A DNA stretch of 29,562 nt, from IMG/VR virus record IMGVR_UViG_3300021599_001169, positions 1-29,562 of that record, one strand, 5' to 3'. Below are positions 804 through 21,686 of the stretch, piece by piece; position 1 is the first letter of the stretch; each line of letters begins with the position of its first letter. The position numbers and the translations under genes are program-made. The notes beneath the pieces are model-generated. The model worked only from the letters and a program-made list of their open reading frames with translations. It did not search any database and had not been told where the DNA came from. The stretch is from a virus.

Positions 804-817
804 AATCGGTATATTTT
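787..817 (+). promoter_or_regulatory. Promoter-like site (TTG-N20-TATATTTT)
   Basis: TTG at 787-789 and TATATTTT at 810-817 are separated by 20 bases, the same layout as other sites in the window. The -33 part lies inside the end of the upstream gene. The -7 box ends only 3 bases before the ATG at 821, so a transcript from here would be nearly leaderless for that gene. This makes the call weak. Confidence 0.3.
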
Positions 818-820
818 AGT

Positions 821-1954: not shown

Positions 1955-1966
1955 AAAATATATTTA
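1936..1966 (+). promoter_or_regulatory. Promoter-like site (TTG-N20-TATATTTA)
   Basis: TTG at 1936-1938 is followed after exactly 20 bases by TATATTTA at 1959-1966, just before fibre copy 2. The TTG lies in the coding sequence of the last residues of copy 1. The overlapping TATAAAAT (1965-1972) also resembles a T4-type late promoter (TATAAATA), so the element class is uncertain. Confidence 0.35.
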
Positions 1967-1972
1967 TAAAAT

Positions 1973-2812: not shown

Positions 2813-2826
2813 AATAATTATATAAA

Positions 2827-6495: not shown

Positions 6496-7532
6496 TGAAA
6501 AAAATATTTTCAATACCATTTAATCCAATGCTTTCCGAAGAAGCATTTATAAATAAATTTTATCCATTCTTAGAAAGAAATAAAGAATGGATATATGATG
6601 TGTACTTCACATGTAGAATACCGCCTTTTACACAAGATGCGATGGGGTCAACATTCTCTGATGAGTTCAGAGATGCGGTATTCGATAATGCAATGATTGT
6701 TCAAAAGGCTTTAGGCATAACTGTAAGTGCAACATTTAATAACGTAAATGTTTCTCCTAAGTTTGATAACTATAAGTTATTTGTTGACAATTTAAAACCT
6801 TTATATGAGAAAGGTTTGAGATGCATGACGATACCACATGGTCATTGGGTTGCGATGGGATTAAAGAAACATTTTCCTGAGATGGAAATTAAAAACACAA
6901 TTCTAAGAAAGGTTGCCACTGGACAAGACTTTTGGTACAACGCCGATCAAGGATTTGATTACATAAATCTCGATAGAATTTTAATGCGTGATGTTGAAGA
7001 ACTTAAAAATATTAAGCGTGCACAATTAAAATACTATGAAGAGAAGGGTAGGTATGTGAAACTATCTTTACTTGTTAATGAAGGTTGCTTAGGTAGATGC
7101 CCAGTTATGGATGAACATTATTCATACAATAATCTAAGAACAAATAATGAGTTACCATATTTTCATCATGAGATATCCAAAGTTACATGTGAATATAAAT
7201 GGGAAAAAGAAATTAATGCGTTCTTTTTTAAAGCTGCAACCATACCACCATTTAAAGAAGAGTTTGATGAGTTTCTACAATACATCGATGTATTCAAGAT
7301 GCATGGCAGAGATAGTTTTAATCGATTAGATGAAACTATGGAAATTGTTGACTCATATGTTGCTAGTAATGAAGTGTTAGCCAAATCATCTGAATTGTAT
7401 TTGGATGGTATTCCTCATGAAGAATTAAAAGGTTGGAGAAATAAAATAAAGAAATGTAAGTTTCAATGCTGGGACTGTAATTACTGTGATATTGTTGCCG
7501 ATCATAAGAAAAAAACATATGGACTTAATTAA
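6492..7532 (+). CDS. Cysteine-rich protein resembling the U32 peptidase / UbiU-UbiV fold
   Basis: A 346-residue protein, probably a TIM-barrel type by its alternating strand/helix pattern. The region INLDRILMRDVEELKNIK followed by LVNEGCLGRCPVMDEH recalls the core of U32-family proteins, some of which (UbiU, UbiV) bind a 4Fe-4S cluster. Cysteines at 199, 203 and 233, and a C-terminal set at 322, 326, 329 and 332 (CKFQCWDCNYC), suggest one or two Fe-S clusters. The start overlaps the radical SAM stop (ATGA); a second ATG lies at 6495. Tight coupling suggests joint function with the radical SAM protein, for example in protein modification or hydroxylation. The family assignment comes from motif resemblance only and may be wrong. 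Confidence 0.55.
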   Translation: MMKKIFSIPFNPMLSEEAFINKFYPFLERNKEWIYDVYFTCRIPPFTQDAMGSTFSDEFRDAVFDNAMIVQKALGITVSATFNNVNVSPKFDNYKLFVDNLKPLYEKGLRCMTIPHGHWVAMGLKKHFPEMEIKNTILRKVATGQDFWYNADQGFDYINLDRILMRDVEELKNIKRAQLKYYEEKGRYVKLSLLVNEGCLGRCPVMDEHYSYNNLRTNNELPYFHHEISKVTCEYKWEKEINAFFFKAATIPPFKEEFDEFLQYIDVFKMHGRDSFNRLDETMEIVDSYVASNEVLAKSSELYLDGIPHEELKGWRNKIKKCKFQCWDCNYCDIVADHKKKTYGLN

Positions 7533-8184
7533 ACATATTGACGATTCAATTGAATGGGGTAAACTAGAAGTGTCTAAATTAACACAAGATATTTTAGATA
7601 TTCATGGAATCACTAGTAATAAAGTTAGATCTTTTCTAAATAACATTTGCGACATCGATGGCGCAACCTATCTAGAGATAGGTGTTTTTCGTGGTGCAAC
7701 ATTTTGTTCTGCGATCTATGGTAATGATATCTATTCAATAGCGATTGATAATTTTATGTCACCTAATCTAACACCACGCGGGGTTAGCCAAAAAATGGGG
7801 AACTATTATAAACATAATATCGATGTGTTACCACAAGAAGAATTCTTATCTAACGTAAAAAAATTTGGAGACGTTGATAAAATATCTGTTTATAAAACTG
7901 ACTATCAATTGTTTGATTTTAAAACACTACCAAATCCTGATATTATTTTTTATGATGGTGAAACTAAATTTCATGATCAATACATTGCTTTAAAAAACAT
8001 TCTACCAATCATATCAAAAGAAACAATCATAATAATGGATGATTGGAACTGGGATAGTGGTGCGTTTGAAAAGTTTATTGAGGAAAATAATTTATTCATT
8101 TTACATTCTAGACAACTGTTCACTTCTGGTGAAGATCCGGAAGATTTTTGGAATGGATTGGGGATATTTTTAGTGGGCAAATAA
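7519..8184 (+). CDS. Class I SAM-dependent methyltransferase
   Basis: The 221-residue protein carries YLEIGVFRGATF at residues 51-62, a glycine-rich motif I of class I methyltransferases, an acidic residue after the next strand (IAIDNF), and a late IIFYDGETK...IIIMDDW segment. The paired acidic residues resemble metal-dependent O-methyltransferases of the TylF/CmcI type. The frame opens at 7486, but the ATG at 7519 is preferred, overlapping the previous gene by 14 bases. It ends the operon that contains the radical SAM and U32-like genes, so it may act on the same substrate. A small molecule, sugar or protein target cannot be chosen from sequence. Confidence 0.75.
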   Translation: MDLIKHIDDSIEWGKLEVSKLTQDILDIHGITSNKVRSFLNNICDIDGATYLEIGVFRGATFCSAIYGNDIYSIAIDNFMSPNLTPRGVSQKMGNYYKHNIDVLPQEEFLSNVKKFGDVDKISVYKTDYQLFDFKTLPNPDIIFYDGETKFHDQYIALKNILPIISKETIIIMDDWNWDSGAFEKFIEENNLFILHSRQLFTSGEDPEDFWNGLGIFLVGK

Positions 8185-8249: not shown

Positions 8250-9134
8250 ATGAGAAAAACAAGTCAAACACTATCGCTAATGTTAGTGTTATTGTTGACT
8301 ACCACTATGTCATTTGGACAGTATAGTAGTAGCGCAATTCAGAAAGGTTCAGAACAATCCTTAAAAGTTCAAACGGACAGTGTCCCTAATCAATTACAAG
8401 AGATCGTTGTTACAGCAAAGAAAGTACCATTGATGACCAAAGTTGGTCCTTATGGTCAACCACTTTGGACAACGATGAGAATGTTCGCATCCACAAGAGT
8501 TTATGTAATGAACCCTCCAGGTACAGCGATGTATGAGAAGTGGTTTGATATTAGACAAAGAAGAAATGGCCCAGCTCAAATCAGAATGAGAGATGAGTTT
8601 ACATTTGGTTTAGGTAAACGATTACAATTAGATCTTTATTCACACACAGTTTATGATGGTAAGGATGGTGATAAAACATTTAGATGGAGAGGATTCTCTT
8701 GGGAGTTCCGTTATGCGTTAGCTGACTGGGGTAAATTGTGGGGTAATCCTACATTGTATTGGGAAACCAAAATGTTAGATGGTCGCTGGGGCATTGAGCC
8801 AAAATTATTACTTGGTGACAGAATTGGTAAGAGTGGTATATGGGGTTTCAATGCGATCTACGAAGGTAATCTAGCAGATAAAAAAGAACTTCGTGAAGAT
8901 GAGTATGCATATACAGCATCTTATGCAAACATCATTAATAACGATTTAACACTAGGTGTTTCACACATGTTTAGATATAATGATTTTGATGGTGGTTCAC
9001 AAGAATGGTATCTTGGGCCACTACTACAATATCGATTTAATAACAAGGCGTATTTGAATGTTGAACACATGTTAGGTCTTAATCAAGACGCAAAACAATC
9101 AAGAACCACAATTATATTTGCATGGAGATTTTAA
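8250..9134 (+). CDS. Secreted outer-membrane beta-barrel protein
   Basis: The 294-residue protein begins with a clear signal peptide (MRKTSQ, then a Leu/Val/Thr core, cleavage near SFGQ at about residue 24). After it comes LQEIVVTAKK (about residues 48-57), which resembles the TonB-box region of Bacteroidota outer-membrane receptors. The rest alternates aromatic and polar residues in beta-strand style (YWETKMLDGRWGIEPKLLLG, QEWYLGPLLQYRF) and ends in IIFAWRF; a terminal aromatic residue is the usual barrel-insertion signal. Without a plug domain it is far too short for a TonB receptor, so a small barrel or porin-like protein is likelier. It overlaps the next membrane-protein gene by 13 bases. 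A host-derived gene for transport or superinfection exclusion is a reasonable guess. Confidence 0.75.
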   Translation: MRKTSQTLSLMLVLLLTTTMSFGQYSSSAIQKGSEQSLKVQTDSVPNQLQEIVVTAKKVPLMTKVGPYGQPLWTTMRMFASTRVYVMNPPGTAMYEKWFDIRQRRNGPAQIRMRDEFTFGLGKRLQLDLYSHTVYDGKDGDKTFRWRGFSWEFRYALADWGKLWGNPTLYWETKMLDGRWGIEPKLLLGDRIGKSGIWGFNAIYEGNLADKKELREDEYAYTASYANIINNDLTLGVSHMFRYNDFDGGSQEWYLGPLLQYRFNNKAYLNVEHMLGLNQDAKQSRTTIIFAWRF

Positions 9135-10129
9135 TCAAAGGACAAGAGTTCCTTGTCTATTTAATATTCATTATGTTCGTAACAGGTATCCTCAAAGAAA
9201 GAGGATACCTTATGGACATCTTTAGATTACTGGAACAAAAAGTTAAATCTAAAAAGATGGTAGTATTCTTAGTATCACTATTCGGTGGTATTCTACCTAT
9301 ACCTGGTCGCGTAGCATTATCAGCATCTATGTTGAATAGTATTGCACCAGTTGATAATAAGAAACGTAAGAAGTTTGGTATCATCGATTACCTCGCTACA
9401 CATCATTATTATCTATGGTCTCCATTGGAGAAGACGGTGATCATACCTATGGCTGTACTAGGTTTAACTTATGTGCAGTTTATGTCATATATCTGGCCGT
9501 TGTTATTAATCTCAGGATTATACATCAGTTATTATATTCTATCATTAGATGATGATGAGATTGATATTGAAGTTAAAGACAATCCAATTAACTGGAATAA
9601 CATATATCTTGTGGTTATACCATTCTTGGCTACCATTATGATGTGTGTATTCTTTACTGATTATTATTTTGGATTCTTTACTGGGTTCACATTATGGTTA
9701 GTGTATCATTCTAAGAGTTGGGGTAAGTTGATGAGTTATGTTAACTGGGAATTGATCTGGATCGTTGCGTTAGTTATCATTCTCGGTAACTTGGTTGGTT
9801 CATACTATTCACAAATAGAAACATTAATTAAAGAATACAGTACACCATCCAATATCCTGATCGTTTCTGTATTAGGGTTTGTAGCGTCATTCCTGCTTGG
9901 ATCATCAGCAAAATATGCTGGAATCGTTAGTTTATTAACAAGTGTGTTTGGTATGCAGTACTTTGTTTTATTCTTTACATTAGAGTATTCTGCATATCTA
10001 ATATCACCGTCACATAAGTGTTTACCAATAGGTCAAAAGTATTTCCATACCGGATTTTTAACATACCTAAAGGCCCTGATTATATGGATATCATTTATGC
10101 TAACTTATGCTATTTTAACAGTTTTATAA
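9122..10129 (+). CDS. Polytopic membrane protein, DUF401-like (putative transporter)
   Basis: A 335-residue protein with about nine or ten hydrophobic segments. After the second segment it shows GGILPIPGRVALSASML, followed by ATHHYYLWSPLEKTVIIP, which resembles the conserved core of the DUF401 family of the ion-transporter superfamily (anion/carboxylate permease-like). Known members are poorly characterised. The start at 9122 lies inside the end of the outer-membrane gene (13-base overlap), so the two are probably made together: one for the outer, one for the inner membrane. Such a large host-type permease in a phage is unusual. Two inverted repeats sit just after the start. The substrate cannot be inferred. 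Confidence 0.7.
   Translation: MEILIKGQEFLVYLIFIMFVTGILKERGYLMDIFRLLEQKVKSKKMVVFLVSLFGGILPIPGRVALSASMLNSIAPVDNKKRKKFGIIDYLATHHYYLWSPLEKTVIIPMAVLGLTYVQFMSYIWPLLLISGLYISYYILSLDDDEIDIEVKDNPINWNNIYLVVIPFLATIMMCVFFTDYYFGFFTGFTLWLVYHSKSWGKLMSYVNWELIWIVALVIILGNLVGSYYSQIETLIKEYSTPSNILIVSVLGFVASFLLGSSAKYAGIVSLLTSVFGMQYFVLFFTLEYSAYLISPSHKCLPIGQKYFHTGFLTYLKALIIWISFMLTYAILTVL
9141..9210 (+). promoter_or_regulatory. Two hairpins at the start of the membrane-protein gene
   Basis: GACAAG (9141-9146) pairs with CTTGTC (9152-9157). A second, stronger repeat has AGGTATCCTC (9184-9193) pairing perfectly with GAGGATACCT (9201-9210) around a 7-base loop. Both lie in coding sequence within 90 bases of the start codon. 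No T-run follows, so this is not a standard terminator. It could affect translation or transcript stability, or be chance. Confidence 0.35.
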
Positions 10130-10182: not shown

Positions 10183-10554
10183 ATGGAAAAAATAACATTA
10201 AAATTGGGAGAAGTTTTACAGCTCGAAAGTGAAATAAACGGGTTTACTAACCAAGAAACAGGTAAGGTTGTTTACCAAGGTTTTATCAAACAAAATCTTT
10301 CTATTTTATTAAAATATGAACTAACTGAATTGTCTGAAACTCTTTCAAAAGAAAGAAAAACTATTGATGGTCTCAGAGATGAGTTAATTAAGAAATATGG
10401 TGAAGATGATGGTAAAGGTGGTATCATAGTTAAAATGTTTAATGAGGTGGTAGATGATGAAGGAAATGTAACTAGCAGAACATTTAATGAGAGCTACTTA
10501 AAATTTGATGAGGAATATTCTAAACTTTTAAACAATGAAAAGGAAATTGAATAA
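10183..10554 (+). CDS. Small acidic phage protein of unknown function
   Basis: A 123-residue, mostly helical, charged protein (MEKITLKLGEVLQLESEING; ELTELSETLSKERKT) without membrane segment, signal peptide or recognisable motif. It has its own promoter-like site and A-rich leader. Its last 35 bases overlap the end of the oppositely oriented glycosyltransferase gene, so the two transcripts are convergent and partly complementary. This is the last plus-strand gene before the glycan block. Regular codon structure and a clean start support a real gene. Function unknown. Confidence 0.65.
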   Translation: MEKITLKLGEVLQLESEINGFTNQETGKVVYQGFIKQNLSILLKYELTELSETLSKERKTIDGLRDELIKKYGEDDGKGGIIVKMFNEVVDDEGNVTSRTFNESYLKFDEEYSKLLNNEKEIE

Positions 10555-11575
10555 AAAGATAAATGTCTTCATCATTGAATGGTTGTTTTTCATAAATCAT
10601 AACATCCACAACATCTGTCAATAAAAACTTAGATCTTAAATCATATCTTGTTCTTGGTTGCTCATTTAGAATGTAGTCTTCTGGAATCTCACCAATATTA
10701 ATTTTATCAAAGTATGGTTCAACTTCATAAATGCGACTTCTGTTATTTGTTGTTAACCCCATTGAAAATGTTTTATATTTGAATACCTCATCTTCCCAAT
10801 AACGTAATTCATTAAATGCCATGATCGGTATTCCCCACTTTCTAACAAAATTTCTATTGGAAGAAATTTCAATTGTCATTCTATCTTTTTTAAAGTCATC
10901 ACCAAATCTAGATGTTTGAGACACAAAATGATAAACCACTGCACACTCAGTTGTTTTTAATTGATAACCTTTTAACTTAGCTCTAATCAAAAAATCATCG
11001 TCTTCGCAAAATGCTGGAACAAAACTAAACCCATCAAACCCACCAACATCATCAAACATTTTTTTAGATCCGGACATAAAGAATGTTGCACCATCGTATA
11101 ATGAACAATTATCTTTCATTTGATTGACGATAGAGTCAAATTGATATTTATTAAAATTATCAAACCCAGATCCCAGATCAATCAATATTTTACCAGGTCT
11201 TCTATGTCCCTTGAATATCGGTGGCTCAATCGTTGTGTATGATAATAGTGTATTTGGATTCTGATCAAGTAGCGTTGACAAATTTTCTAAAAATCTTTCA
11301 CCAATAACCATGTCATTATGAATCAATACTAAGTTATCTGTGTCAACCAGTTTAATACCAGTATTATAGTTTTCAGAAAATGTTAATTTGTCATCATCAT
11401 GAATATAAGATAGATATTCATCACTCAGTGACTCTAACCATTCTTTTGTACCATCAGAAGATCCGCCGCTACTAATTACCAATGGAGCATCTGGATATAT
11501 CTCACGAACTCTCTGATAACAACTTTGTGTTAAATCCAATTTATTGTATACCGCTAGAACAAAAGTTATATTCAT
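10520..11575 (-). CDS. Glycosyltransferase, family 2-like (GT-A fold)
   Basis: The 351-residue protein starts with the GT-A nucleotide-binding pattern (TFVLAVYNKLDL, then VISSGGSSDGTKEWL). It has HNDMVIG in place of the usual DxD-type motif and a later FCEDDDFLIRAKLKGYQL, the acidic ED segment typical of family 2 enzymes. A C-terminal extension of about 100 residues is unassigned. It is the last gene of the minus-strand block, and its start overlaps the preceding gene by 4 bases (ATGA). It would transfer a sugar from a nucleotide donor, probably in the cytoplasm; donor and acceptor are unknown. Confidence 0.8.
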   Translation of the reverse strand: MNITFVLAVYNKLDLTQSCYQRVREIYPDAPLVISSGGSSDGTKEWLESLSDEYLSYIHDDDKLTFSENYNTGIKLVDTDNLVLIHNDMVIGERFLENLSTLLDQNPNTLLSYTTIEPPIFKGHRRPGKILIDLGSGFDNFNKYQFDSIVNQMKDNCSLYDGATFFMSGSKKMFDDVGGFDGFSFVPAFCEDDDFLIRAKLKGYQLKTTECAVVYHFVSQTSRFGDDFKKDRMTIEISSNRNFVRKWGIPIMAFNELRYWEDEVFKYKTFSMGLTTNNRSRIYEVEPYFDKINIGEIPEDYILNEQPRTRYDLRSKFLLTDVVDVMIYEKQPFNDEDIYLFIQFPFHCLKV

Positions 11576-12312
11576 CGTTTCATATCATTTGTTATAAACA
11601 TCCTGTCTGTATTATCTTTCCAAACAAGATTATCACTATTGTTTGATTTCACTTGTGAAACTAAACCACTGTATTCACATGGTCCCCAAACGGAAAACAT
11701 TTTATTATATATCGCCATATCAAGTCCAGATGTTTGTGGTGCTGGATAAAACAATCCATGATCAACAAATGCTTTTCTTGAGTATGTAACTTGAGATGAA
11801 TCTACTCTACCAGCACAATTAATTGGGGTTTTATGAACATTAGTAAAATAACTAAAATCCATCCTATTAACACCGGATTGATAATCTTCTCTTAGAGAAT
11901 CATATAAAACCATATTATGATAAAAATAGTTTTTATTTATATTCTCTTCTTTATTTAAAAATATATTAAGTTTTGTTAAGAAGTGTGGAAATATTGCATC
12001 GTCATCACATAGTATTATCACATGATCAGCATTACTTTCGTTTATTGCTTTGTTTAAATATCTACCATGTATACTGCCACCTTGTTCTTTTTTTTGTTCG
12101 ATTGTATTATCTATGTAATCAAATTTAAATTTATCTATTATAGATGAACACACTTCTCTGACAATTGGTTCGCCACGATTAACCGATCCATCATCAATGA
12201 AGTGAACTTCAAATTCTGGATATGTTATATCTAATATCGAATTTAAAGAATTCAATACTATTTTTGGTCTTTCATAGTAAGCCAAAATAATTAAAAATTT
12301 ATTCATTTTCAT
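11572..12312 (-). CDS. Glycosyltransferase, family 2
   Basis: A 246-residue GT-A protein. The N-terminus (FLIILAYYERPKIV), VHFIDDGSVNRGE and the DxD-type motif LCDDDAIFP give a standard family 2 catalytic core. Conserved Asp later (SGLDMAIYNKMF) could complete the acceptor site. The start at 12312 overlaps the SDR gene by 14 bases; an in-frame ATG at 12306 is equally possible. It is compact, with no membrane segments, so it should be soluble. It probably works with the neighbouring sugar-modifying enzymes. Confidence 0.8.
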   Translation of the reverse strand: MKMNKFLIILAYYERPKIVLNSLNSILDITYPEFEVHFIDDGSVNRGEPIVREVCSSIIDKFKFDYIDNTIEQKKEQGGSIHGRYLNKAINESNADHVIILCDDDAIFPHFLTKLNIFLNKEENINKNYFYHNMVLYDSLREDYQSGVNRMDFSYFTNVHKTPINCAGRVDSSQVTYSRKAFVDHGLFYPAPQTSGLDMAIYNKMFSVWGPCEYSGLVSQVKSNNSDNLVWKDNTDRMFITNDMKR

Positions 12313-12943
12313 AACCGCCTGTGATTGAAATATTTGTACCGTTTATATATTCAGTTTCTATTATTGTTTTTATTAAGTTAGACATCTCTGATACATAACC
12401 TAACCTTTTTAATGGAATGCTTTTTAAGACATTTGATAAAACATCTTCAGGAACCCTTTCGGTTAATCCACCATCAAAATAACCCAATTGAATTGAGTTG
12501 GCTGTTATACCATATTTAGAATTCTCTAGAGAATATGTTTTTATTAAATTATCACAAAATGCTTTTGATGCTGAATATATACCAGTACCCCTAATAGGAT
12601 TTTTTGAAAGCACAGACGAGATATAGATAATCCTACCAAATTTATTTGCCCGCATCTTCTCTGTTGAATGTCTTATAACGTTTATAAAACCATTTAAATT
12701 AACATCTAATTGTTTTGTTACGTTGTCCAATGTTTGTTTATGAATTAAACCGTCGATGTTCTTTACTGACAAATAAATGATAATATCAAAATCTGTTTTA
12801 TTAATAAATTCTTTAACAGAATTATCATTAGTTACATCACAAATTTTAGATCCAATAGAAACACACTCATATTCTGTTGAGAGCAAATTAACTAGTTGCG
12901 ATCCTAAACCACCAGTACCACCAAATAATAATATTCTTTTCAT
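12299..12943 (-). CDS. Short-chain dehydrogenase/reductase, FabG-like
   Basis: The 214-residue protein (counted from ATG at 12943) has the Rossmann motif GGTGGLG at residues 8-14, the catalytic serine in YISSVLS (109/110) and Y123-S-A-S-K127, so the active site is intact. The C-terminal NGTNISITGGYENE resembles the end of FabG-type 3-oxoacyl-ACP reductases. Its start shares one base with the stop of the ketoacyl synthase gene (TAATG); a start at 12955 would add four residues. Direct coupling to a FabH-like synthase makes reduction of a 3-oxoacyl chain the best guess; a sugar-nucleotide reductase is the alternative. Confidence 0.75.
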   Translation of the reverse strand: MKRILLFGGTGGLGSQLVNLLSTEYECVSIGSKICDVTNDNSVKEFINKTDFDIIIYLSVKNIDGLIHKQTLDNVTKQLDVNLNGFINVIRHSTEKMRANKFGRIIYISSVLSKNPIRGTGIYSASKAFCDNLIKTYSLENSKYGITANSIQLGYFDGGLTERVPEDVLSNVLKSIPLKRLGYVSEMSNLIKTIIETEYINGTNISITGGYENE

Positions 12944-13872
12944 TATTTTGACCATTTAATTAAACCACTTCCCCAAACCCAACCAGAGCCAATTGTTGTT
13001 AACAAAACTAATTGATTATTTTTTAATTTACCACTTTTATATAACAAATCTAATGTTACTGGTATTGAGGCGCCCGCTGTGTTTGCATATCGTTCCATGG
13101 AAAGCGCAAATTTATTAAAGTCAATGCCCAAAATTTCTGCAGTCTTTTCCAAAATCTTGATACTTGGTTGGTGTGGAACAACGTGATCGATTCGGTTTTT
13201 ATCAATACCAGTTCTTTTCAATAATTTAAGTATTGAATCTGGCAACTTTGTTATCCCCCCATTATATATTTCTTTACCAATCATAGAAAATTTTTGACCG
13301 TGATGAACGGTAAACGCTTCTTTACCCCTACCATCAGCATATAAGTCTATTTCGCAATAATTTGATTCGTCTTTTTGGAGTACAACGGCGCCGGACCCAT
13401 CTCCAAAAAACACACAATCTCTTCTATCCCAATCAGTTATCTTAGAGTAAGTTTCAGAAGCAACTAATAAAATATTCTTATATTGATTTAAAGATAACAA
13501 ACCTTTCGCAATTTGTAAACCATAAAGAAACCCAGGACAAACCGCATTAACATCAACACACGCTGCATTAAAAGCGCCTATTTTTTCTTGTAATAAACAT
13601 GCTGTTGATGGAGAGATTCTATCTGGTGAAGATGTTGCCATTATTATGAAATCAATATCTTCCACAGATAACCCAGCGTCTTTTATTGCGGATAAAGAAG
13701 AGTTAACTGCTAAATCTGAACTGAACTCGTTGTCTTTAGATATCCTTCTCTCAGTAATGCCTAGAGTATTTTTAACCCATTCATCTGATGTTGATACTGA
13801 TTTAGATATTTCGTGATTAGTTAAAATGTGCTCTGGAACATACGATCCTATACCAATAATCTTTAATGACAT
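12943..13872 (-). CDS. Beta-ketoacyl-ACP synthase III-like protein (FabH family)
   Basis: This 309-residue thiolase-fold enzyme has the full KAS III triad: C112 in VNAVCPGFLYG, H234 in VVPHQPSIKI and N264 in RYANTAGAS. Other FabH landmarks are present (DEWVKNTLGITERR, FFGDGSGAVVLQ, TTIGSGWVWGSGLI). FabH-type enzymes condense an acyl-CoA with malonyl-ACP to a 3-oxoacyl-ACP. The length is normal. The neighbours, a FabG-like reductase one base downstream and a dioxygenase two bases upstream, suggest formation of a short hydroxyacyl group for a sugar, as with VioS/VioR in Pseudomonas syringae flagellin glycan, rather than membrane lipid synthesis. No carrier protein gene is visible, so the host ACP would be used. 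A KAS III in a phage is unusual. Confidence 0.85.
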   Translation of the reverse strand: MSLKIIGIGSYVPEHILTNHEISKSVSTSDEWVKNTLGITERRISKDNEFSSDLAVNSSLSAIKDAGLSVEDIDFIIMATSSPDRISPSTACLLQEKIGAFNAACVDVNAVCPGFLYGLQIAKGLLSLNQYKNILLVASETYSKITDWDRRDCVFFGDGSGAVVLQKDESNYCEIDLYADGRGKEAFTVHHGQKFSMIGKEIYNGGITKLPDSILKLLKRTGIDKNRIDHVVPHQPSIKILEKTAEILGIDFNKFALSMERYANTAGASIPVTLDLLYKSGKLKNNQLVLLTTIGSGWVWGSGLIKWSK

Positions 13873-13874
13873 TA

Positions 13875-14759
13875 TTATTTATGTTTGTATTCTCTAATGT
13901 TTTTTGTTGTTAAATCCTTCTCTTTAAATTCCCCCTTCCACGCTTCAGAGAACATTGGTGAATAATACACATCACAATCATCATAGTAGTAGTGTGTCAC
14001 TTGTGAATATCTAGTGCTATTTGGGTCTCTAATAACATCTCCGCCATGAATTAAATTGGCAGACCAAACAAATGCTTGACCTTTTTTGCAAACTAATGGC
14101 TTCACCTCTAACTCATTCACTTCGACAAGTTGTCTAACAAACTCTTCATATTCAGCATAACTATCAAATTGTTTACCATACTCTGGTACTTTAACTTTCA
14201 TATCATAAAAATCAAAGATTGGCAACTTATGGGATTTCGGAACATATAATAATGAACCATTTTGATCTGTCATATCTTCTAAAGCCACCCATACAGCTGT
14301 TAACCATCTATGTGGTAGAGAATCAAAATGTATAAGGTCACTATGTAAAGGTTGATTAGAACCATAATTAAATGTTATTGTTTGAAATGGATATGGCTCT
14401 CTCTTATACAACATTTTAAGTGTATTAATAACGTGTGGATTTAATGACAAAGATTGTAACATCTCACTTTCTCTCCACCCCTCAAATATTCTCTTACCTT
14501 TTGAATAATGATACCCACCCTCTTGTGTTTTGGTATCATCTTTTGAATTTAAAAAATCAATTTCTTTTCTGAAATTATTAATTTGTTCATCAGACAACCC
14601 TAAATCTAAAACAACATAACCATCATTATTAAATTTTATGGCAAGTTCTTTTTCTTCATCAGTTAAATTCTGATGCTTTATCAACTCATTAAAAAATGGT
14701 GATTCGACCCATGGCCAATTCATTTCTTCATGATTTTCTTTAAAATTTCTCATATTCAT
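13875..14759 (-). CDS. PhyH-type Fe(II)/2-oxoglutarate dioxygenase
   Basis: The 294-residue protein has the iron-binding facial triad H139-x-D141 (PLHSDLIHF) and H238 (NLIHGGD), plus R250 (NSTRYSQVTHYY), which would bind 2-oxoglutarate. VPKSHKLP and the strand pattern match the phytanoyl-CoA dioxygenase family, which hydroxylates small molecules and some acyl or sugar-linked substrates. Start at 14759 or 14753. It lies between the acyltransferase and KAS III genes, so it may hydroxylate the acyl group or the amino sugar; this is inferred from position only. Confidence 0.8.
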   Translation of the reverse strand: MNMRNFKENHEEMNWPWVESPFFNELIKHQNLTDEEKELAIKFNNDGYVVLDLGLSDEQINNFRKEIDFLNSKDDTKTQEGGYHYSKGKRIFEGWRESEMLQSLSLNPHVINTLKMLYKREPYPFQTITFNYGSNQPLHSDLIHFDSLPHRWLTAVWVALEDMTDQNGSLLYVPKSHKLPIFDFYDMKVKVPEYGKQFDSYAEYEEFVRQLVEVNELEVKPLVCKKGQAFVWSANLIHGGDVIRDPNSTRYSQVTHYYYDDCDVYYSPMFSEAWKGEFKEKDLTTKNIREYKHK

Positions 14760-14778
14760 AAATATTTTAAATGGTACC

Positions 14779-15345
14779 TCATCTTTGTTTTATAAAATTT
14801 GGATCTTCAGATAATTTTATAACATTTTCTTTGTTTCTCGGCTTATGAAATTGTAATGGACTACCCAAATAAACAGACCACTCTTTTAATTCATTTTTAG
14901 AATATACAAAACTTTTGGCGCCAACGGTACAACCTTCCGGAAATGTAACACCTGGTAAAACCATCACATCTGACGCGATACCAGAGTAATCTTTAAATGT
15001 TATATCACCCCTGAATATTTTATTATTACCCCAATATTCATTTACAGGGCCAAATTCTCCACTATAATCTTCAGACGCACAAAATAATTTAGAACCATAA
15101 CCAATAAAATTCCATTTACCTAAAGTTATCTTGTGTTGGGCACCACCACCTAAAACTGCATGTGAACAAATCTGAGCATAACTACCAACTTCTAATTCTG
15201 TTGTAATTAAACAAAATGGATCTATTCTCACATTGTCCCCTAAAATAACTTTTTTTGGATTTGTAAAAATTACATTATGACCAATCACAACATTATTCCC
15301 ACAGTAACCCAACTCTTTTTTTATTTCTTCATTCCAACCTATCAT
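14779..15345 (-). CDS. Hexapeptide-repeat acyltransferase
   Basis: A 188-residue left-handed beta-helix protein. Hexapeptide-like turns run from about residue 18 to 150 (VVIGHNVIF, VILGDNVRID, GIASDVMVLPG, CTVGAKSFV), with the usual end GSPLQFHKPR. H62 or H71 are candidates for the catalytic base in an extended loop region (CSHAVLGGGAQHK). Such enzymes acylate sugars or amino sugars using acyl-CoA or acyl-ACP. It overlaps the methyltransferase gene by 4 bases. With KAS III and aminotransferase genes close by, N-acylation of an amino sugar is plausible; simple O-acetylation is the alternative. Confidence 0.8.
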   Translation of the reverse strand: MIGWNEEIKKELGYCGNNVVIGHNVIFTNPKKVILGDNVRIDPFCLITTELEVGSYAQICSHAVLGGGAQHKITLGKWNFIGYGSKLFCASEDYSGEFGPVNEYWGNNKIFRGDITFKDYSGIASDVMVLPGVTFPEGCTVGAKSFVYSKNELKEWSVYLGSPLQFHKPRNKENVIKLSEDPNFIKQR

Positions 15346-16295
15346 ATTTTTTCACATATTATATAATTCCAGCTTGCTGTAAAGCTGTTGTTATTATTAA
15401 AAATTATATTGATTGCCTCTTCCATAATATCTAACCTATTTTGAATATCTGTTAGATTCGAAAGATCACCACTTACTTTATGAACACCGCCTATCCAACC
15501 AAGAATACCTTCATCGTAAACTTTTAAAAAATCAAACCATTCCTTAATATTAGACTTAACATCTATTGTTTTTATTTCATTTACAACAAACCCATTTCTA
15601 TATAGGCTATCTATGTAGTAATCAATATTCCGTATTGGTAAAAAATATTTGTCTTTAAGCTTAGCATATTTTTCTAAGTACGCGACATCAGAAAGTTTAC
15701 TCAAATATTGATGGTAGGATTTATTATTCTTAACAATATCAAAAGATAGTTTAAAAATATCATTTACGGTTTGATCTATTAAAACAGATGTTGGTGTTTT
15801 CATTCTAGGATTATCAATATTACCAGAATTGATTAACAACTTACCACCTTTTTTTAAAAGATTGTTCCAACCAATGATCGTCTCATCTATTGTTGGGTAT
15901 AAATGAATTGCATTTGCACAAATAATTCCATCTAGTTTTTGATTCAAATCATCAACAATAGAATCATTTATTTTCTTTTTCAAATCCAATAGTCTGAACG
16001 AATATGATTGTTCTTCTTTAAATTTTTCATAAGCCAACCTTAGATATTTTAAAGATGCATCTACCATTAAAAGAGATGGATTCAAGCCACTTTGTTTTAA
16101 TCTTTCACAAAAAATACCTGTCCCACATGAATAGTCCATAATCAGACTATTGTTTGAAAAAAAATCATTAGACAGTTTAACTAAGTAATCTAAATTATTA
16201 TACCAGTCATGATGTTTAACTTCATCATATCCCAATGCAAACTCTGTAATTGGAGAGTTTTTAATTTTTTCATCATATATTTTTTCAATTACCAT
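15342..16295 (-). CDS. Class I SAM-dependent methyltransferase
   Basis: The 317-residue protein shows motif I as IMDYSCGTGIF (residues 52-62), an acidic residue ending strand 2 (MVDAS, D79), and GIICANAIHLYP then GKLLINSG further on, the order of a class I methyltransferase fold. The C-terminal ~100 residues are not assigned. It overlaps the aminotransferase gene by 7 bases and the acyltransferase gene by 4, so it belongs to the sugar-modification operon. An O- or N-methylation of the sugar product is likely, but the site cannot be told. Confidence 0.75.
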   Translation of the reverse strand: MVIEKIYDEKIKNSPITEFALGYDEVKHHDWYNNLDYLVKLSNDFFSNNSLIMDYSCGTGIFCERLKQSGLNPSLLMVDASLKYLRLAYEKFKEEQSYSFRLLDLKKKINDSIVDDLNQKLDGIICANAIHLYPTIDETIIGWNNLLKKGGKLLINSGNIDNPRMKTPTSVLIDQTVNDIFKLSFDIVKNNKSYHQYLSKLSDVAYLEKYAKLKDKYFLPIRNIDYYIDSLYRNGFVVNEIKTIDVKSNIKEWFDFLKVYDEGILGWIGGVHKVSGDLSNLTDIQNRLDIMEEAINIIFNNNNSFTASWNYIICEKI

Positions 16296-17470
16296 CCTTG
16301 TTTAATGCAGTCTACAATATATTGTCTATCATCATTATTAACCCACCATCCGATTGGGATTGAAATTACCTTACCAATCGTTCTATCTAAATTTGGTAAC
16401 AGAGAACGATGCTCTTTTACACAAGTATGAATATCGTTTCTTTCATGTACTTGTGAAACTGCGATACCACAATCTTTCATATGTTTCATGAAATCATTTT
16501 TTCTTTCAACTTTCATAGAATATATCCAGAAAGAACTGTCCATATCAGGATTTCTTTCTAACAAAGTTATACCTGCAACATTTTTTAATTCTTTATCATA
16601 AAACTTAGCATTATCCCTGTGCTTAGCAATAATTTCATCAACGTGTTTAAAATTCTCCATACCGATTGCAGCATTAACATCATTCATATGAAATTTAAAA
16701 CCCCACTCTTCGATATCGGCTTCACAACGGAAATCTTTTCTTGGTGAATCCCTATCAATACCATACCACCTTAATAAACGAGCTCTTCTATTCAACTCTT
16801 GATGCGGCACAAATAATAAACCACCATCAACAGACGTAATGTGTTTAATCGCTTGCAATGAGAATGTACAAATGTTACCGTGTGTCCCAATTAACTTACC
16901 CTTATACTTACTTCCCATTGCGTGAGCACAATCCTCAATAACTGCTGGCTTAAACCCATATAATCTCATTGATTTTTCTTGAATTAATCTTAACCTTTCA
17001 AGATCAACAGGATAACCACCCCAATGAACTACCATGATAGCTTTTGTTTTACGGGTTATCTTTCTTTCTAAATCATCTAAATCCATATTCAATGTATTTG
17101 GATCGATATCTACCCATTTAATTTTGAAATTATTAGCTAAAATAGGCCAATTAGTTGCTGTACATGTTAGTGGCGTTGTCAATACCTCATCACCATCTTC
17201 CATACCATTCCATATATTTTCTCTAATACCATAGCCATCAGCCTTGGTGAACGTGAATGGTTTTTTAATTAAGTGTAATGCTAAATGTTCAGCAGAAGTT
17301 GCTGCATTCATTGTTGAAATATAATCATGTTGAAAATAATTTCTTAAAACAGATTCAAATTCATCTACAACCGGGCCCTGACCAATAAATCCGCTATTAA
17401 GGACTTTTGCAACTTTTTCGGCGGCAGTATCTGCCATAAAAACCTTAAATAAGGGTATTTCTCGTTTCAT
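16289..17470 (-). CDS. DegT/DnrJ/EryC1/StrS-type sugar aminotransferase
   Basis: A 393-residue PLP enzyme of normal family length. It has NAATSAEHLAL (cofactor phosphate region), VIEDCAHAMGSKYKGK, and FSLQAIKHITSVDGG, where K209 should form the internal aldimine. The family transfers an amino group to keto-sugars bound to nucleotides, giving amino sugars for glycans. The start follows a promoter-like site in a 47-base gap, the largest gap in the core of this block. Downstream genes overlap or nearly touch, consistent with one operon running to 10520. Its keto-sugar substrate may come from the host or another phage gene; no 4,6-dehydratase is identifiable here. Confidence 0.85.
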   Translation of the reverse strand: MKREIPLFKVFMADTAAEKVAKVLNSGFIGQGPVVDEFESVLRNYFQHDYISTMNAATSAEHLALHLIKKPFTFTKADGYGIRENIWNGMEDGDEVLTTPLTCTATNWPILANNFKIKWVDIDPNTLNMDLDDLERKITRKTKAIMVVHWGGYPVDLERLRLIQEKSMRLYGFKPAVIEDCAHAMGSKYKGKLIGTHGNICTFSLQAIKHITSVDGGLLFVPHQELNRRARLLRWYGIDRDSPRKDFRCEADIEEWGFKFHMNDVNAAIGMENFKHVDEIIAKHRDNAKFYDKELKNVAGITLLERNPDMDSSFWIYSMKVERKNDFMKHMKDCGIAVSQVHERNDIHTCVKEHRSLLPNLDRTIGKVISIPIGWWVNNDDRQYIVDCIKQGW

Positions 17471-17484
17471 GTTCGTTTTTTTTA

Positions 17485-17515
17485 ATAATATAATTGTTTT
17501 TTATTGGAAAAACAA
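17485..17515 (-). promoter_or_regulatory. Promoter-like site (TTG-N20-TATATTAT)
   Basis: Read on the minus strand, TTG at 17515-17513 and TATATTAT at 17492-17485 are 20 bases apart. They lie in the short gap between the epimerase and aminotransferase genes and could start a transcript for the aminotransferase-to-glycosyltransferase operon. Confidence 0.45.
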
Positions 17516-17517
17516 CA

Positions 17518-18366
17518 TTATAAGCTTAAAATATAATGATTTAATTTATCCTTAGGGGACCAATTAAGTATTTTAAGCGAGTCGTCATTCTCTCTTTTAG
17601 TTACTCTATAATTTCCGGGTTGATCTGGCACATAAACACAACTTATGTTTGGGAACCTATTCTGAAACATTTTGTATACTTCGTTTATTGAATAGTTGAC
17701 CCCAGTACCAAATTCCCAAGCGTCTTCATGACTTAAATTGGAAACACCCACTTTATATAATCCATCCACAATGTCATCTACGTGAGTAAAATCTCTACGC
17801 TGCTCTCCATCGCCAACAATCGTGATTGGTTCACCATCCATCACCTGTCTTCTCCATATACCAATTACTGCAGCCCAATCACCATCAAGAATTTCCTTTG
17901 GCCCATAAACATTATAAAAGCGGCATATTTCTGCTTTAAGCCCATAAGCTTTTTTATATAATTTAAAAATTTCTTCGCCCATATGTTTAAAGCAAGCATA
18001 TGGTGATTGATATGGGTTGTGCCACCTTGAAGATGAACCCGAATAAATAACTTTAATATTATTTTTCTTTGCCCATTCAGCGACAGCAATACAACCCGAC
18101 GTGTTGACTCTGTATGTTTCCGATGGATTTTTAAAGGATGGTTGTATTCTAGATAATGCGGCCAAATGATATACCAAACCAAAGTCTTTATCCATTAAAT
18201 GTATTGACTCTATGTCACCCGATATGTAATTACAACCACCAACATGATTATTCTGGCTACCACTATCGTAGTTATCCAATGAATGAACATCATGACCTTC
18301 CCTGATTAATTTTTCAATTAGATTGCTACCAACAAACCCCGCACCACCTGTTACTAATATTTTCAT
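17518..18366 (-). CDS. NAD-dependent nucleotide-sugar epimerase/dehydratase-like protein
   Basis: The 282-residue extended SDR protein has GGAGFVGS at residues 7-14, HLAALSR, a serine-rich YSGSSS (S111-113) and Y123-A-C-F-K127, the full catalytic Y-x3-K pair. GDGEQRRDFTHVDDI and RFYNVYGP are typical of UDP-glucose/GlcNAc 4-epimerase relatives. Lengths of epimerases are usually near 310-340, so this one is somewhat short. It overlaps the upstream glycosyltransferase by 4 bases. It could supply or isomerise the sugar used by the aminotransferase; the exact reaction cannot be fixed. Confidence 0.8.
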   Translation of the reverse strand: MKILVTGGAGFVGSNLIEKLIREGHDVHSLDNYDSGSQNNHVGGCNYISGDIESIHLMDKDFGLVYHLAALSRIQPSFKNPSETYRVNTSGCIAVAEWAKKNNIKVIYSGSSSRWHNPYQSPYACFKHMGEEIFKLYKKAYGLKAEICRFYNVYGPKEILDGDWAAVIGIWRRQVMDGEPITIVGDGEQRRDFTHVDDIVDGLYKVGVSNLSHEDAWEFGTGVNYSINEVYKMFQNRFPNISCVYVPDQPGNYRVTKRENDDSLKILNWSPKDKLNHYILSL

Positions 18367-18986
18367 AGAGTACTGTAGTATGTGTTTTGTTTTTCTTGTT
18401 TTTTAATGTCTTTATAATGAAGGATACAAAAATCATCATCATCTTCCGGTAGTATTGAATAAAACTTACCACCAACAATTCTTTCATGAACTTTACCTTC
18501 CCACATTAACCCCTTTTTATAGAGTCTACCTTGATAGTCGGGAAAGTTGATTCTATTTTTATTATCTACCTTCCATCTCCATTGCTTTATATGTTCTTCT
18601 GTTATCCCGTTAACAGTATTAATTCTTGGAAAATAAAATAAATCGATCTCATCATTTAATTTAATCACCTCATCAATGTTTTTTACCAACGATTCACTAA
18701 GCATTTCATCAGCATCTAGTTGGAAAATATAATCACCACCACAATAATCATTTAATTTATTCTTCCAGTCTGCAAAATTATTATCGAAATCAAATGATCT
18801 CCATGTTTGAACATTAGGCAGTTTATTAAATTCTAATAGAAAGTTGAGGACTCTTTCATCTCCATTTTTACTATCATATAAAATGACAATCTCATCATTA
18901 ATTCTTTTGTTCTTAATTAAGAATGGGACCAATCGCATTATTTCCTCATATTCATTACATACTGTGATTGCAAAACTAATTTTCAT
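18363..18986 (-). CDS. Glycosyltransferase, family 2 (WaaE-like)
   Basis: A 207-residue protein starting MKISFAITVCNEYEE with FQLDADEML as the DxD-type motif and VHERIVGG later, as in WaaE/KdtX-like family 2 enzymes. The frame continues upstream to 19181, but that part overlaps a convincing small gene and looks non-coding, so the ATG at 18986 is chosen. It overlaps the small gene by 11 bases and the epimerase by 4. Probably soluble and part of the glycan pathway. Confidence 0.8.
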   Translation of the reverse strand: MKISFAITVCNEYEEIMRLVPFLIKNKRINDEIVILYDSKNGDERVLNFLLEFNKLPNVQTWRSFDFDNNFADWKNKLNDYCGGDYIFQLDADEMLSESLVKNIDEVIKLNDEIDLFYFPRINTVNGITEEHIKQWRWKVDNKNRINFPDYQGRLYKKGLMWEGKVHERIVGGKFYSILPEDDDDFCILHYKDIKKQEKQNTYYSTL

Positions 18987-19275
18987 TTTTTTCTCTTGTG
19001 AATATTTTAAATTCTTTACCTGTTTTAGTGTCTTTAAAGACGATATTTGTGTTTGTTTGATTTGTAAGTGTGAAACTAATCTTAGCATCATTACCACTGT
19101 AATATTCTCTCGTTGATGCAAATACATGTGGTTCATTATCATCAAACTGAAAACACCATTCGCAGTGTTTGAATGTACCATTATTGGGGGTAATAAATAA
19201 ACTACTGCTTGATGGAGGCGATAATCTTAGTATTGGGTCTAGAGTTGTAGATTTATTTTTTTTAGACTTAGCCAT
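18976..19275 (-). CDS. Small protein of unknown function within the glycosyltransferase block
   Basis: A 99-residue protein with a basic start (MAKSKKNKS), a Pro/Ser stretch, then beta-type sequence (AKISFTLTNQTNTNIVF) and two cysteines in HCEWC. No signal peptide or membrane segment. It begins 15 bases after the upstream glycosyltransferase stop and overlaps the next gene by 11. A small virion or decoration protein is conceivable, as is an accessory of the glycosyltransferases. I do not recognise it. Confidence 0.65.
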   Translation of the reverse strand: MAKSKKNKSTTLDPILRLSPPSSSSLFITPNNGTFKHCEWCFQFDDNEPHVFASTREYYSGNDAKISFTLTNQTNTNIVFKDTKTGKEFKIFTREKNEN

Positions 19276-19290
19276 TTTATTTAATTTTAT

Positions 19291-20331
19291 TTAGTTTAGG
19301 TAAAATAATTTCTTTTTGCTTCGGTTGCTCAACAACATATGGTTTAATGATTTCTTGACACCAATCATAATTGCTTTATCCATTGGTAAGAAATCTTTAT
19401 GTCCAGACCAATTAGATGCAATCACAGGCTTACCAGTCATCGTGAATTCTAATAATGGTCTTCCAAATCCTTCACCCTTTGTTAAAGAAACCATTGCTTT
19501 TATTTTTGGATGATTATATAATTCATTCATCTCAGAATTTGATAACTCACCAAATAACAAATAAACCGTTGGTGGGGTTTTTATATCGTTAACAACATCT
19601 TTTATCTTTTTACTTAATTCTTCTCTTTGTTTAATTGAGAAAGTTGCTGCAGATGTTTTCAAAACAAGAGCTGGTTTGTTTTCGTAGTTAGAAAACGCTT
19701 GACAAAAAGATCTGATTAACATACCAACATCTTTTCTGTCCTGCCCGATATTTCCTTTTAACCAATGCCCAACAAATAAAAACGCAAAGTCTTCTTTAAT
19801 ATCTAAATCTATTCCATTGTATTGATTATTAAAAATTTTATCATCAACACCTTCGAATAGAACTGAAACAGGTTTAACAATTCTGTGTTGTGTAATTAGT
19901 TTACCAGTATTTTTTTCATTCTCATTGTAAACTGTTGATAATAAAACATTTGCAGAAAATTCAGATGTTGTGATTATTAAATCCATTTTATTACAACCAT
20001 CAATCCATTCTTTAGGAGCAACAGTTGTTTCAATACCAGCTGTTATTCCTATGTTAAATTTACCAACTCTTTGAAATTCATTTGGGACTGTTACCTGAAC
20101 ATAAACATCTGGCGTTCCAGCTAGTGATGTTACTATATTTGATTCAATCCACTTATGAAATAGATTATCATTTTCTAATGCTGTTAATGGTGTTGACCCC
20201 CAACCACAGCTATCTATTTTTATATCAAACAAATCCATTTGATACAATGCTTCTAATAAATCTCTTGAGTGGGAACCATATCCACTTCTAGTTTTTACTG
20301 GTCCTCTAAATAATAAAAACGGTTTACTCAT
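19291..20331 (-). CDS. Glycosyltransferase, GT4-like (GT-B), possibly frameshifted at the C-terminus
   Basis: The 346-residue protein has a GT-B layout: an N-terminal domain with GPVKTRSGYGSHSRDLLEAL, and a C-terminal domain with FLFVGHW and KGEGFGRPLLEF...GKPVIASNWSGH, the E-x7-E nucleotide-binding region of retaining family 4 enzymes. After KAIMIG the sequence becomes an unusual basic tail (SLNHMLLSNRSKKKLF). The -1 frame is open from 19375 to a stop at 19277 and gives a Pro/Glu/Lys-rich tail (PYVVEQPKQKEIILPKL) that looks more like real coding sequence and ends two bases from the next ATG. A frameshift or small deletion near 19345-19375 is likely. The core motifs are unaffected. It overlaps the upstream glycosyltransferase by 4 bases. 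Confidence 0.75.
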   Translation of the reverse strand: MSKPFLLFRGPVKTRSGYGSHSRDLLEALYQMDLFDIKIDSCGWGSTPLTALENDNLFHKWIESNIVTSLAGTPDVYVQVTVPNEFQRVGKFNIGITAGIETTVAPKEWIDGCNKMDLIITTSEFSANVLLSTVYNENEKNTGKLITQHRIVKPVSVLFEGVDDKIFNNQYNGIDLDIKEDFAFLFVGHWLKGNIGQDRKDVGMLIRSFCQAFSNYENKPALVLKTSAATFSIKQREELSKKIKDVVNDIKTPPTVYLLFGELSNSEMNELYNHPKIKAMVSLTKGEGFGRPLLEFTMTGKPVIASNWSGHKDFLPMDKAIMIGVKKSLNHMLLSNRSKKKLFYLN

Positions 20332-21686
20332 ACAATTTTATATAAATCAAATCTTTTTCTTGGGGTCCAATTATTAAACACTTCTTCGATACCCTCAATC
20401 ATTTTATCACACATTATTTTATTAGATAGGTTACTCAACATGAATTCCCTACCCTTCAAACCAATTTGTTTTCTTTTCTTCTTGGTAAATGAATACATTT
20501 TACCAATAGCTGTTGCCACTTCTTCATCATTTACACGATCATCAAAGATGTATGGTGTTGGGACAGATCCATTTAAATTAATCGCTGCTGGCCAAATAGG
20601 GATAACCCATTCACCATGTTTAGTTGCCCCATGAATTCTTCTGTTGTGTAATGTCCCAAAAGAAATATAACTATTTTCATCATAACCAAACCCCATTTGA
20701 TCTTGTAAACCACCAGTAACATTCGCAATGATCGGCGTACCAGCCATCAATGATTCGGCAGTCGTTAACCCAAACCCTTCGTTATTTGCAATATTGATTG
20801 TACAATCAACAAGATTATAAATTTCATTTAATTTATCTTGCTCGAGTTTAAGCCCGGTAAACTTAACATCGTATGGGCAAACTGCTTCAATTACCGCCGG
20901 TAGGTCAGTACCATTCTCATCAACAGCGGCAGTATGCATTAATAACAAACACCTATCTGCTTTTTCTTTTGGTAAACTATCACAGAAAAGTTTGAAAGAA
21001 TAAATTACATCTGATGGTTGTTTTCTTCTTATGTTCCTATTATTATAGAATAAAATAAAATCATATTCTTTTTCACCATAAACAATTTTCTTTACATCAT
21101 CAGACACTTTATCCAAAGGTTTGAAAGTTTCTGGATTAATCCCGTGAGGAACATATTTTATCTGCCAATCCTCTAGTGGCTTCCATGTAGAACCATTCTC
21201 CATTTTACCAACCCTGTGAACAATACCATATGTTTGTTTAGATATACAGCCTAACCAATCACAACTTTCATAATAATTTCTATTGTATTTTGGATCTGGT
21301 AAATCATCCCATATATGATAAAATAATATTGGTACCTGTTGTCTAATTTCATGTTCATTTTCATAAAGCCACTGCCAATAATGTGGGTCTGTGAAATGAA
21401 GAATCGCATCTGGCTCTTCGTCGGCAATCAGTTTTCTTAAAATGCCAATATCACCATAACCGTTGTAAGGGATAACCTTTAGGTTTGCATCTAATACTCC
21501 AGTCCTTTTTCTAATATCGTCATTGATATCAACAATTTTACCAATCTCTGGATGTTTGATTGCTGCACCTAATTGTACCCAATCATATTTGTGAACTGTA
21601 CCTAAGACAATTTCTTTTGACATTGTAGCAATTCCACTTGTCATCCTTAAATCATCTGACAATAATAATATTTTCTTTTTTTTCAT
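20328..21686 (-). CDS. Glycosyltransferase, family 4 (GT-B)
   Basis: A 452-residue protein. LLLSDDLRMTSGIATMSKEI near the start and a second domain with FILFYNNRNIRRKQP and NNEGFGLTTAESLMAGTPII show a family 4 retaining glycosyltransferase, with the two glutamates of the donor-binding motif. A charged C-terminus ends in FDLYKIV. It lies 3 bases after the small RHH-like gene and overlaps the next glycosyltransferase by 4, so the two GT-B enzymes are co-expressed and perhaps act in sequence. Donor and acceptor are unknown. Confidence 0.85.
   Translation of the reverse strand: MKKKKILLLSDDLRMTSGIATMSKEIVLGTVHKYDWVQLGAAIKHPEIGKIVDINDDIRKRTGVLDANLKVIPYNGYGDIGILRKLIADEEPDAILHFTDPHYWQWLYENEHEIRQQVPILFYHIWDDLPDPKYNRNYYESCDWLGCISKQTYGIVHRVGKMENGSTWKPLEDWQIKYVPHGINPETFKPLDKVSDDVKKIVYGEKEYDFILFYNNRNIRRKQPSDVIYSFKLFCDSLPKEKADRCLLLMHTAAVDENGTDLPAVIEAVCPYDVKFTGLKLEQDKLNEIYNLVDCTINIANNEGFGLTTAESLMAGTPIIANVTGGLQDQMGFGYDENSYISFGTLHNRRIHGATKHGEWVIPIWPAAINLNGSVPTPYIFDDRVNDEEVATAIGKMYSFTKKKRKQIGLKGREFMLSNLSNKIMCDKMIEGIEEVFNNWTPRKRFDLYKIV

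Follow-up and report, generated by a model that had tools for sequence, protein, structure and literature searches.

A phage gene island predicted to assemble an N-acylated 4-amino sugar with its own acyl-chain enzymes

Why does a phage carry a ketosynthase, a ketoacyl reductase and a dioxygenase among its glycosyltransferase genes? The locus that raises this question lies in a virus record of 29,562 bases (IMG/VR record IMGVR_UViG_3300021599_001169, analysed as a whole and here termed the window), where one near-continuous run of overlapping genes occupies 10520-21686 of the minus strand. An initial annotation, made from the sequence alone, read 10520-18986 as a phage-borne pathway that could build an acylated, modified amino sugar. 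We found that this observation is confirmed and its interpretation partly supported: Pfam and NCBIfam profile searches assign each of the named genes to the proposed family, at the same place and on the same strand. We consider it probable that the island is a working phage pathway for an N-acylated 4-amino-4,6-dideoxyhexose, the product being attached to an acceptor, likely a virion protein. This reading is carried by the gene content, the intact catalytic residues, purifying selection, recurrence in other phages and a bacterial locus that repeats the gene order.

The genes, among them two GT4-type and three GT2-type glycosyltransferases, follow one another from 21686 down to 10520 in this order:

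20328-21686, minus strand: GT4b, GT4-type glycosyltransferase, first gene of the island (Pfam PF00534, 2.2e-7; PHROG glycosyltransferase, 9e-17; 49% identity to a Flavobacterium phage immuto glycosyltransferase)
19291-20331, minus strand: GT4a, GT4-type glycosyltransferase (PF00534, 5e-7; relatives)
18976-19275, minus strand: small open reading frame (ORF) of 99 amino acids with the motif CEWCFQFDDNEPHVFAS (family present at the same place in relatives; no match in the Pfam search)
18363-18986, minus strand: GT2c, GT2-like glycosyltransferase (PF00535, 2.6e-5; place kept in most close relatives)
17518-18366, minus strand: NAD-dependent sugar epimerase-like short-chain dehydrogenase/reductase (PF01370, 2e-45; YxxxK at 123-127)
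16289-17470, minus strand: DegT/DnrJ/EryC1 sugar aminotransferase, DegT (Pfam, 1e-73; pyridoxal phosphate lysine K209)
15342-16295, minus strand: S-adenosylmethionine methyltransferase (Pfam, 5e-8; pN/pS 0.46)
14779-15345, minus strand: HEX, left-handed beta-helix (hexapeptide) acyltransferase, putative sugar 4-N-acyltransferase (Pfam Hexapep, 3e-14; PDB 3vbi-3vbp)
13875-14759, minus strand: PhyH-type Fe(II)/2-oxoglutarate dioxygenase, PhyH (Pfam, 2e-19; H139-x-D141...H238, R250)
12943-13872, minus strand: ketoacyl synthase III (KAS III), FabH-like (NCBIfam TIGR00747; C112/H234/N264; Ser87)
12299-12955, minus strand: FabG-like short-chain reductase, SDR (Pfam, 5e-24; S113/Y127/K131)
11572-12312, minus strand: GT2b, GT2 glycosyltransferase (Pfam, 1e-11; position after the SDR conserved)
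10520-11575, minus strand: GT2a, GT2 glycosyltransferase (Pfam, 5e-12; 3' end cut)

The class of sugar is indicated by two enzymes. Among solved aminotransferases, DegT scored 410 bits to PDB 4zwv/4xau and 385 bits to 4zas, the next solved enzyme reaching 123. We take 4zwv and 4xau to be AtmS13 and 4zas to be CalS13, so that the CalS13/AtmS13 type is the closest of the solved DegT enzymes. CalS13 presumably makes TDP-4-amino-4,6-dideoxyglucose, and AtmS13 presumably belongs to an aminopentose pathway, because of which the DegT sugar could be a hexose or a pentose. HEX scored 78 bits to PDB 3vbi-3vbp, with the next solved protein at 29 bits; these entries, deposited under another name, we assume to be AntD, the anthrose N-acyltransferase. 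The DegT and HEX matches, independent of each other, would thus indicate the same class, the 4-amino sugars, in keeping with the acylated amino sugar first proposed. The epimerase, nearest to the solved UDP-glucose 4-epimerase 4zrm (121 bits), occupies a variable slot in which other genes stand in relatives.

Next we examined the enzymes of the acyl chain. KAS III passes the TIGR00747 fabH profile (303.5 bits, curated cut-off 292.1), and its Cys-His-Asn triad is kept in 46 of 46 phage homologues; a recount returned the same catalytic residues as annotated for KAS III (C112/H234/N264), DegT (K209) and PhyH (H139/D141/H238). When aligned to FabH, residue 87 is Ser in the window and Phe in the housekeeping enzymes, and across the 46 phage KAS IIIs it is Ser in 42, Ala in three, Leu in one and Phe in none. 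The Phe87 gate is a substrate feature of housekeeping acetyl-CoA FabH and not part of the fold, and the acyl pocket of the phage enzyme may be wider than in FabH. The SDR, with S113/Y127/K131 present, has FabG and acetoacetyl-CoA reductase as its nearest solved relatives. Both enzymes are therefore FabH- and FabG-like, rather than belonging to unrelated pathways, and their active sites are intact. A tree built from KAS IIIs of phages (35) and bacteria (six) sets the phage sequences on one side of a branch with support 99/99; given six comparators and the lack of an outgroup, this shows that the phage lineage is distinct but not which way transfer went. Neither KAS III nor PhyH has a match among the PHROG families. 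The INPHARED phage collection gave KAS III matches of at most 42%, mostly in unannotated or fragmentary records plus Helicobacter, Listeria or Staphylococcus phage entries, which we set aside as likely bacterial sequence, and it gave no match to PhyH.

The dioxygenase was annotated as an addition to the viosamine-type gene set of Pseudomonas syringae. It is indeed absent from that bacterial island and often present in the phage version. Across 11 aligned homologues, H139, D141, H238 and the 2-oxoglutarate-binding R250 do not vary; the Asp ligand D141, present in 11 of 11, rules out a SyrB2-type halogenase, which has Gly or Ala there. In a structural model of moderate confidence (pLDDT 76), Foldseek matched SnoN, SnoK, human PHYH and EctD, with E of about 1e-12 or better to the double-stranded beta-helix fold of SnoN, SnoK and PHYH, and this places PhyH in the general superfamily only. 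It is thus predicted to be a hydroxylase-type enzyme acting on the acyl chain or the sugar.

Under this hypothesis, DegT would aminate an NDP-4-keto-6-deoxyhexose drawn from the host; in relatives of another layout, a phage GDP-mannose 4,6-dehydratase may make the 4-keto-6-deoxyhexose. KAS III would join a short acyl-CoA to malonyl on the host acyl carrier protein (ACP), the SDR would turn its product into a 3-hydroxyacyl thioester, and HEX would transfer the 3-hydroxyacyl group to the sugar amine, giving an amide. PhyH may then add a hydroxyl group to either the sugar or its acyl chain, and the methyltransferase may cap a hydroxyl; the soluble cytoplasmic GT2 and GT4 enzymes would attach the sugar to the acceptor, for which a virion protein of the phage is the most likely candidate. 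From the matches of DegT, HEX, KAS III and SDR together, the predicted product is a 4-(3-hydroxyacyl)amido-4,6-dideoxyhexose. We infer the substrates, the step order, the use of host ACP and the acceptor.

Furthermore, many other viral contigs show the same gene set and order, and so the island is not a chance assembly. KAS III as sole query found 58 loci in viral contigs, in 50 of which a HEX or GNAT acyltransferase lies nearby (three or fewer genes away in 49); six of the eight loci that lack one end at most 1.2 kb from KAS III. After removal of near-copies, 47 contig groups remained, 40 with HEX or GNAT, 32 with PhyH and 26 with SDR; no other gene accompanies KAS III as constantly as the acyltransferase. 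PhyH as sole query found 20 viral loci, the commonest order being DegT-methyltransferase-HEX-(u247)-PhyH-KAS III-SDR-GT2b-GT2a. The expectation that other phages would share the gene set was therefore borne out. Ratios of nonsynonymous to synonymous change (pN/pS) between the window and a related locus (L006) were 0.07 for HEX, 0.12 for DegT, 0.12 for PhyH, 0.22 for KAS III, 0.27 for SDR and 0.46 for the methyltransferase, which has the lowest conservation among the enzymes of the set; synonymous sites are near saturation, which makes these values rough, and they indicate that the island enzymes are under purifying selection.

Four variants were found: the window layout with a full-length DegT (A); KAS III-(SDR)-HEX-PhyH-short DegT (about 195 amino acids)-GDP-mannose dehydratase (B); a layout that includes close relatives, with a GNAT acyltransferase instead of HEX and more divergent KAS III and SDR (C); and HEX-PhyH-SDR-GT2b with KAS III absent (D). 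The half-length DegT-like aminotransferase (L003:12386-12973 and about 20 other loci, about 195 amino acids) stands upstream of the GDP-mannose dehydratase and retains the SFQYQKHLSLGRGG lysine motif; normal DegT enzymes have 360-390 amino acids. Many islands hold, adjoining PhyH, a 247-amino-acid family (u247; L006:9249-9992 and relatives) that is absent from the window and had no Pfam match. A carbamoyltransferase gene near the island of a 269-kb contig (L011:17529-19199) is another possible sugar modification.

A bacterial counterpart was sought in 394 genomes sampled from the phylum of a Thermochlorobacter genome (G014), which we took to be Bacteroidota. A KAS III this close (45-47%) occurred in five of them, and a profile search added one; two of the six lie in glycan loci. 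One of these (L185) reads DegT-HEX-KAS III-SDR-GT2-flippase, the window order minus methyltransferase and PhyH, as anticipated for a Bacteroidota glycan locus, and the other (L170) reads GNAT-KAS III-SDR-flippase-glycosyltransferase. Most near bacterial KAS III copies (L171-L174) were set aside as lying outside glycan loci, three adjoining an apparent enoyl-ACP reductase gene. Bacterial DegT relatives (39-45%) were likewise rejected as counterparts, since the sugar loci in which they stand are different ones, a second DegT adjoining in four of the five and KAS III in none. Nor did PhyH point to a cellular origin: none of 16 bacterial homologues adjoins other core pathway genes, and a search at E 1e-40, run with no positive control, found none in 79 genomes of one family.

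Where, then, would the sugar go? The search for export and carrier genes covered 14 viral records, the window plus 13 related ones (about 942 kb in total, one of them 269 kb), and two bacterial genomes. Flippases (PF13440, PF01943), the initiating transferase (PF02397) and ACP (PF00550) were absent from the 14 viral records and present in both bacterial genomes, and an ACP motif scan gave false matches only, in one small-ORF family. The viral records are fragments, which makes these absences suggestive. They favour a protein acceptor over lipid-linked lipopolysaccharide (LPS); ACP would be supplied by the host, and a virion protein appears a more likely acceptor than host LPS. It is possible, at clearly lower probability, that the same sugar modifies the host surface (LPS or capsule) and blocks superinfection, as has been proposed for jumbo cyanophage polysaccharide clusters (PMC7824862). 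Such sugars are characteristic of O-antigens, and a flippase adjoins the bacterial locus; however, the phage versions retain cytoplasmic enzymes only, and the missing flippase and initiating transferase speak against this destination.

An improbable alternative is that the product is diffusible or DNA-linked, either a secondary metabolite or sugars on modified bases. T4-like phages do glycosylate their DNA. PhyH, KAS III and the carbamoyltransferase of the 269-kb contig bring to mind the second cluster of jumbo cyanophages, which has been proposed to be secondary-metabolite-like (PMC7824862); however, the single island holds five glycosyltransferases, and the window yielded one nucleotide-modifying gene only, a broken thymidylate synthase that keeps its FNIASYG motif. 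Least probable is that KAS III and SDR feed host fatty-acid synthesis during infection, their location in a glycan island being incidental: KAS III does score above the fabH subfamily cut-off, but an acyltransferase stands within three genes in 49 of the 58 loci, the phage enzymes form their own branch with Phe87 in none of 46, and KAS III is optional within otherwise conserved islands.

Several points weigh against the pathway proposed here, of an acylated 4-amino sugar placed on a virion protein. The window is without a clear dedicated 4,6-dehydratase. Six clusters (L012, L013, L020-L023) have HEX-PhyH-SDR without KAS III, and SDR is absent from about half of the KAS III clusters, so that the linear scheme from KAS III through SDR to HEX is not fixed. 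As SDR also accompanies PhyH in clusters lacking KAS III, it is not only the partner of KAS III, and in variant D it would have another role or another acyl source. The bacterial relatives of PhyH (29-43%) are located away from pathway genes. Finally, no phage-encoded ACP was found, the acceptor is putative and the records are fragmentary.

As to the carriers, long matches to the Gp23 major capsid protein in three related contigs (G004, G012, G013) suggest that at least some are T4-like. One related contig has a capsid closest to those of Immutovirus (Flavobacterium) and a Microcystis phage (about 41%), and a clue in the other direction is a fibre-like window protein that matches cyanophages at 29%. 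Short ORFs between GT4a and GT2c (L011:4137-4523, L006:4892-5179, L016:5165-5518) contain a piece of Gp23, corresponding to PF07068 positions 148-214 (E 5.5e-16 for L011); the L011 ORF and the capsid protein encoded on that contig share 58% identity over 50 residues. We put forward, as a tentative and rather unlikely extension, that a phage-specific lineage of short-chain acyl enzymes, KAS III with PhyH, has the dedicated task of giving virions a coat of hydroxylated acyl-amino sugar, for which the small proteins of the islands, some with the Gp23 piece, could be acceptors or adaptors.

The limits of the island needed revision. Its upper end lies at 21686 and not 18986, because the two GT4 genes belong to it, and the lower edge at 10520 is truncated in the window. 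A contig from another record (L002), near-identical and essentially the same virus, has 198 bases that window 10520-10554 lacks, where GT2a (369 amino acids in L002) and a convergent 123-amino-acid ORF lose their 3' ends; this edge is therefore probably one of assembly or deletion. The 3' part of GT4a is probably shortened too (346 amino acids, 415-421 in relatives). Elsewhere, L002 lacks about 74 codons of a DUF401-like gene at 9559-9672, another gap of about 200 bases; in the window this membrane protein spans 9122-10129 and has 37-39% relatives in nine Synechococcus phage records. The thymidylate synthase (24119-25121) is broken into two frames. Its halves lie about 190 bases apart in relatives (L186-L188), so that a stretch expected to contain the catalytic Cys region is missing in the window, apparently by deletion or assembly error. 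Fibre-like repeats occur in the left part (about 1-3942), one of them about 29% identical to cyanophage proteins, and 5494-8184 holds in a row a radical SAM protein (no match among INPHARED phages), a Cys-containing 346-amino-acid neighbour and a Methyltransf_24 protein. A PADLOC search gave no defence-system match.

A literature search combining phage, 3-oxoacyl, DegT, phytanoyl and glycosyltransferase returned no matching paper. A close precedent, compared at the level of enzyme class, is the viosamine island of P. syringae (vioA, vioM, vioT, vioS, vioB, vioR, acp), whose product on flagellin is 2-O-methyl-4-(3-hydroxybutyryl)amido-4,6-dideoxyglucose (PMC3927599). The likeness drawn in the initial annotation holds for the aminotransferase, methyltransferase, KAS III, acyltransferase, ketoacyl reductase and glycosyltransferase (VioA/B/M/R/S/T); it fails for ACP, which was not found here, and unlike the phage island the viosamine island is bacterial, has acp and has no PhyH among its seven genes. 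The O-antigen R-group genes (wfpC-wfpG) of Flavobacterium psychrophilum, a Bacteroidota host, likewise include KAS enzymes, a ketoacyl reductase and a PglD-like acyltransferase, which together are proposed to place a 3,5-dihydroxyhexanoyl group on a 4-amino sugar (PMC6519341). They differ in two KAS genes, a dedicated ACP, UDP-Qui2NAc4N and a Wzx/Wzy pathway, and the searched text names no hydroxylase.

The Bacteroidota locus L185 (G436:C92) shares the DegT-HEX-KAS III-SDR-GT2 order; unlike the window, its 6.6 kb contig has no PhyH or methyltransferase, a flippase follows GT2, and its DegT, at 116 bits to the phage profile, falls outside the close type of the window. The glycan island of Flavobacterium phage immuto (NC_055915) has relatives of DegT (58% identical), GT4b (49%), GT2c (47%) and the epimerase (43%); it differs in having no match to KAS III, PhyH, HEX or the FabG-like SDR in the 31 kb region read. 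Cyanophage polysaccharide clusters of the P-SSM2 type resemble the island in phage-borne epimerases, glycosyltransferases and 2-oxoglutarate oxygenases, whereas KAS III is not reported there (PMC7824862); our INPHARED search found no cyanophage match to KAS III or PhyH. Mimivirus also encodes an acylated, methylated 4-amino-4,6-dideoxyglucose, the 2-O-methyl-4-acetamido-viosamine of its virion fibrils, as a eukaryotic virus with acetyl only and no ketosynthase pathway described (PMC9614988).

Taken together, the findings suggest that phages carry an O-antigen-like acyl-amino-sugar operon minus the genes of lipid-linked export, and the predicted phage glycan is chemically unusual. Phage glycan islands are already known, and are usually described as sets of sugar and glycosyltransferase genes; the island described here is a variant with acyl-chain enzymes, which are intact and widespread in uncultured phages.

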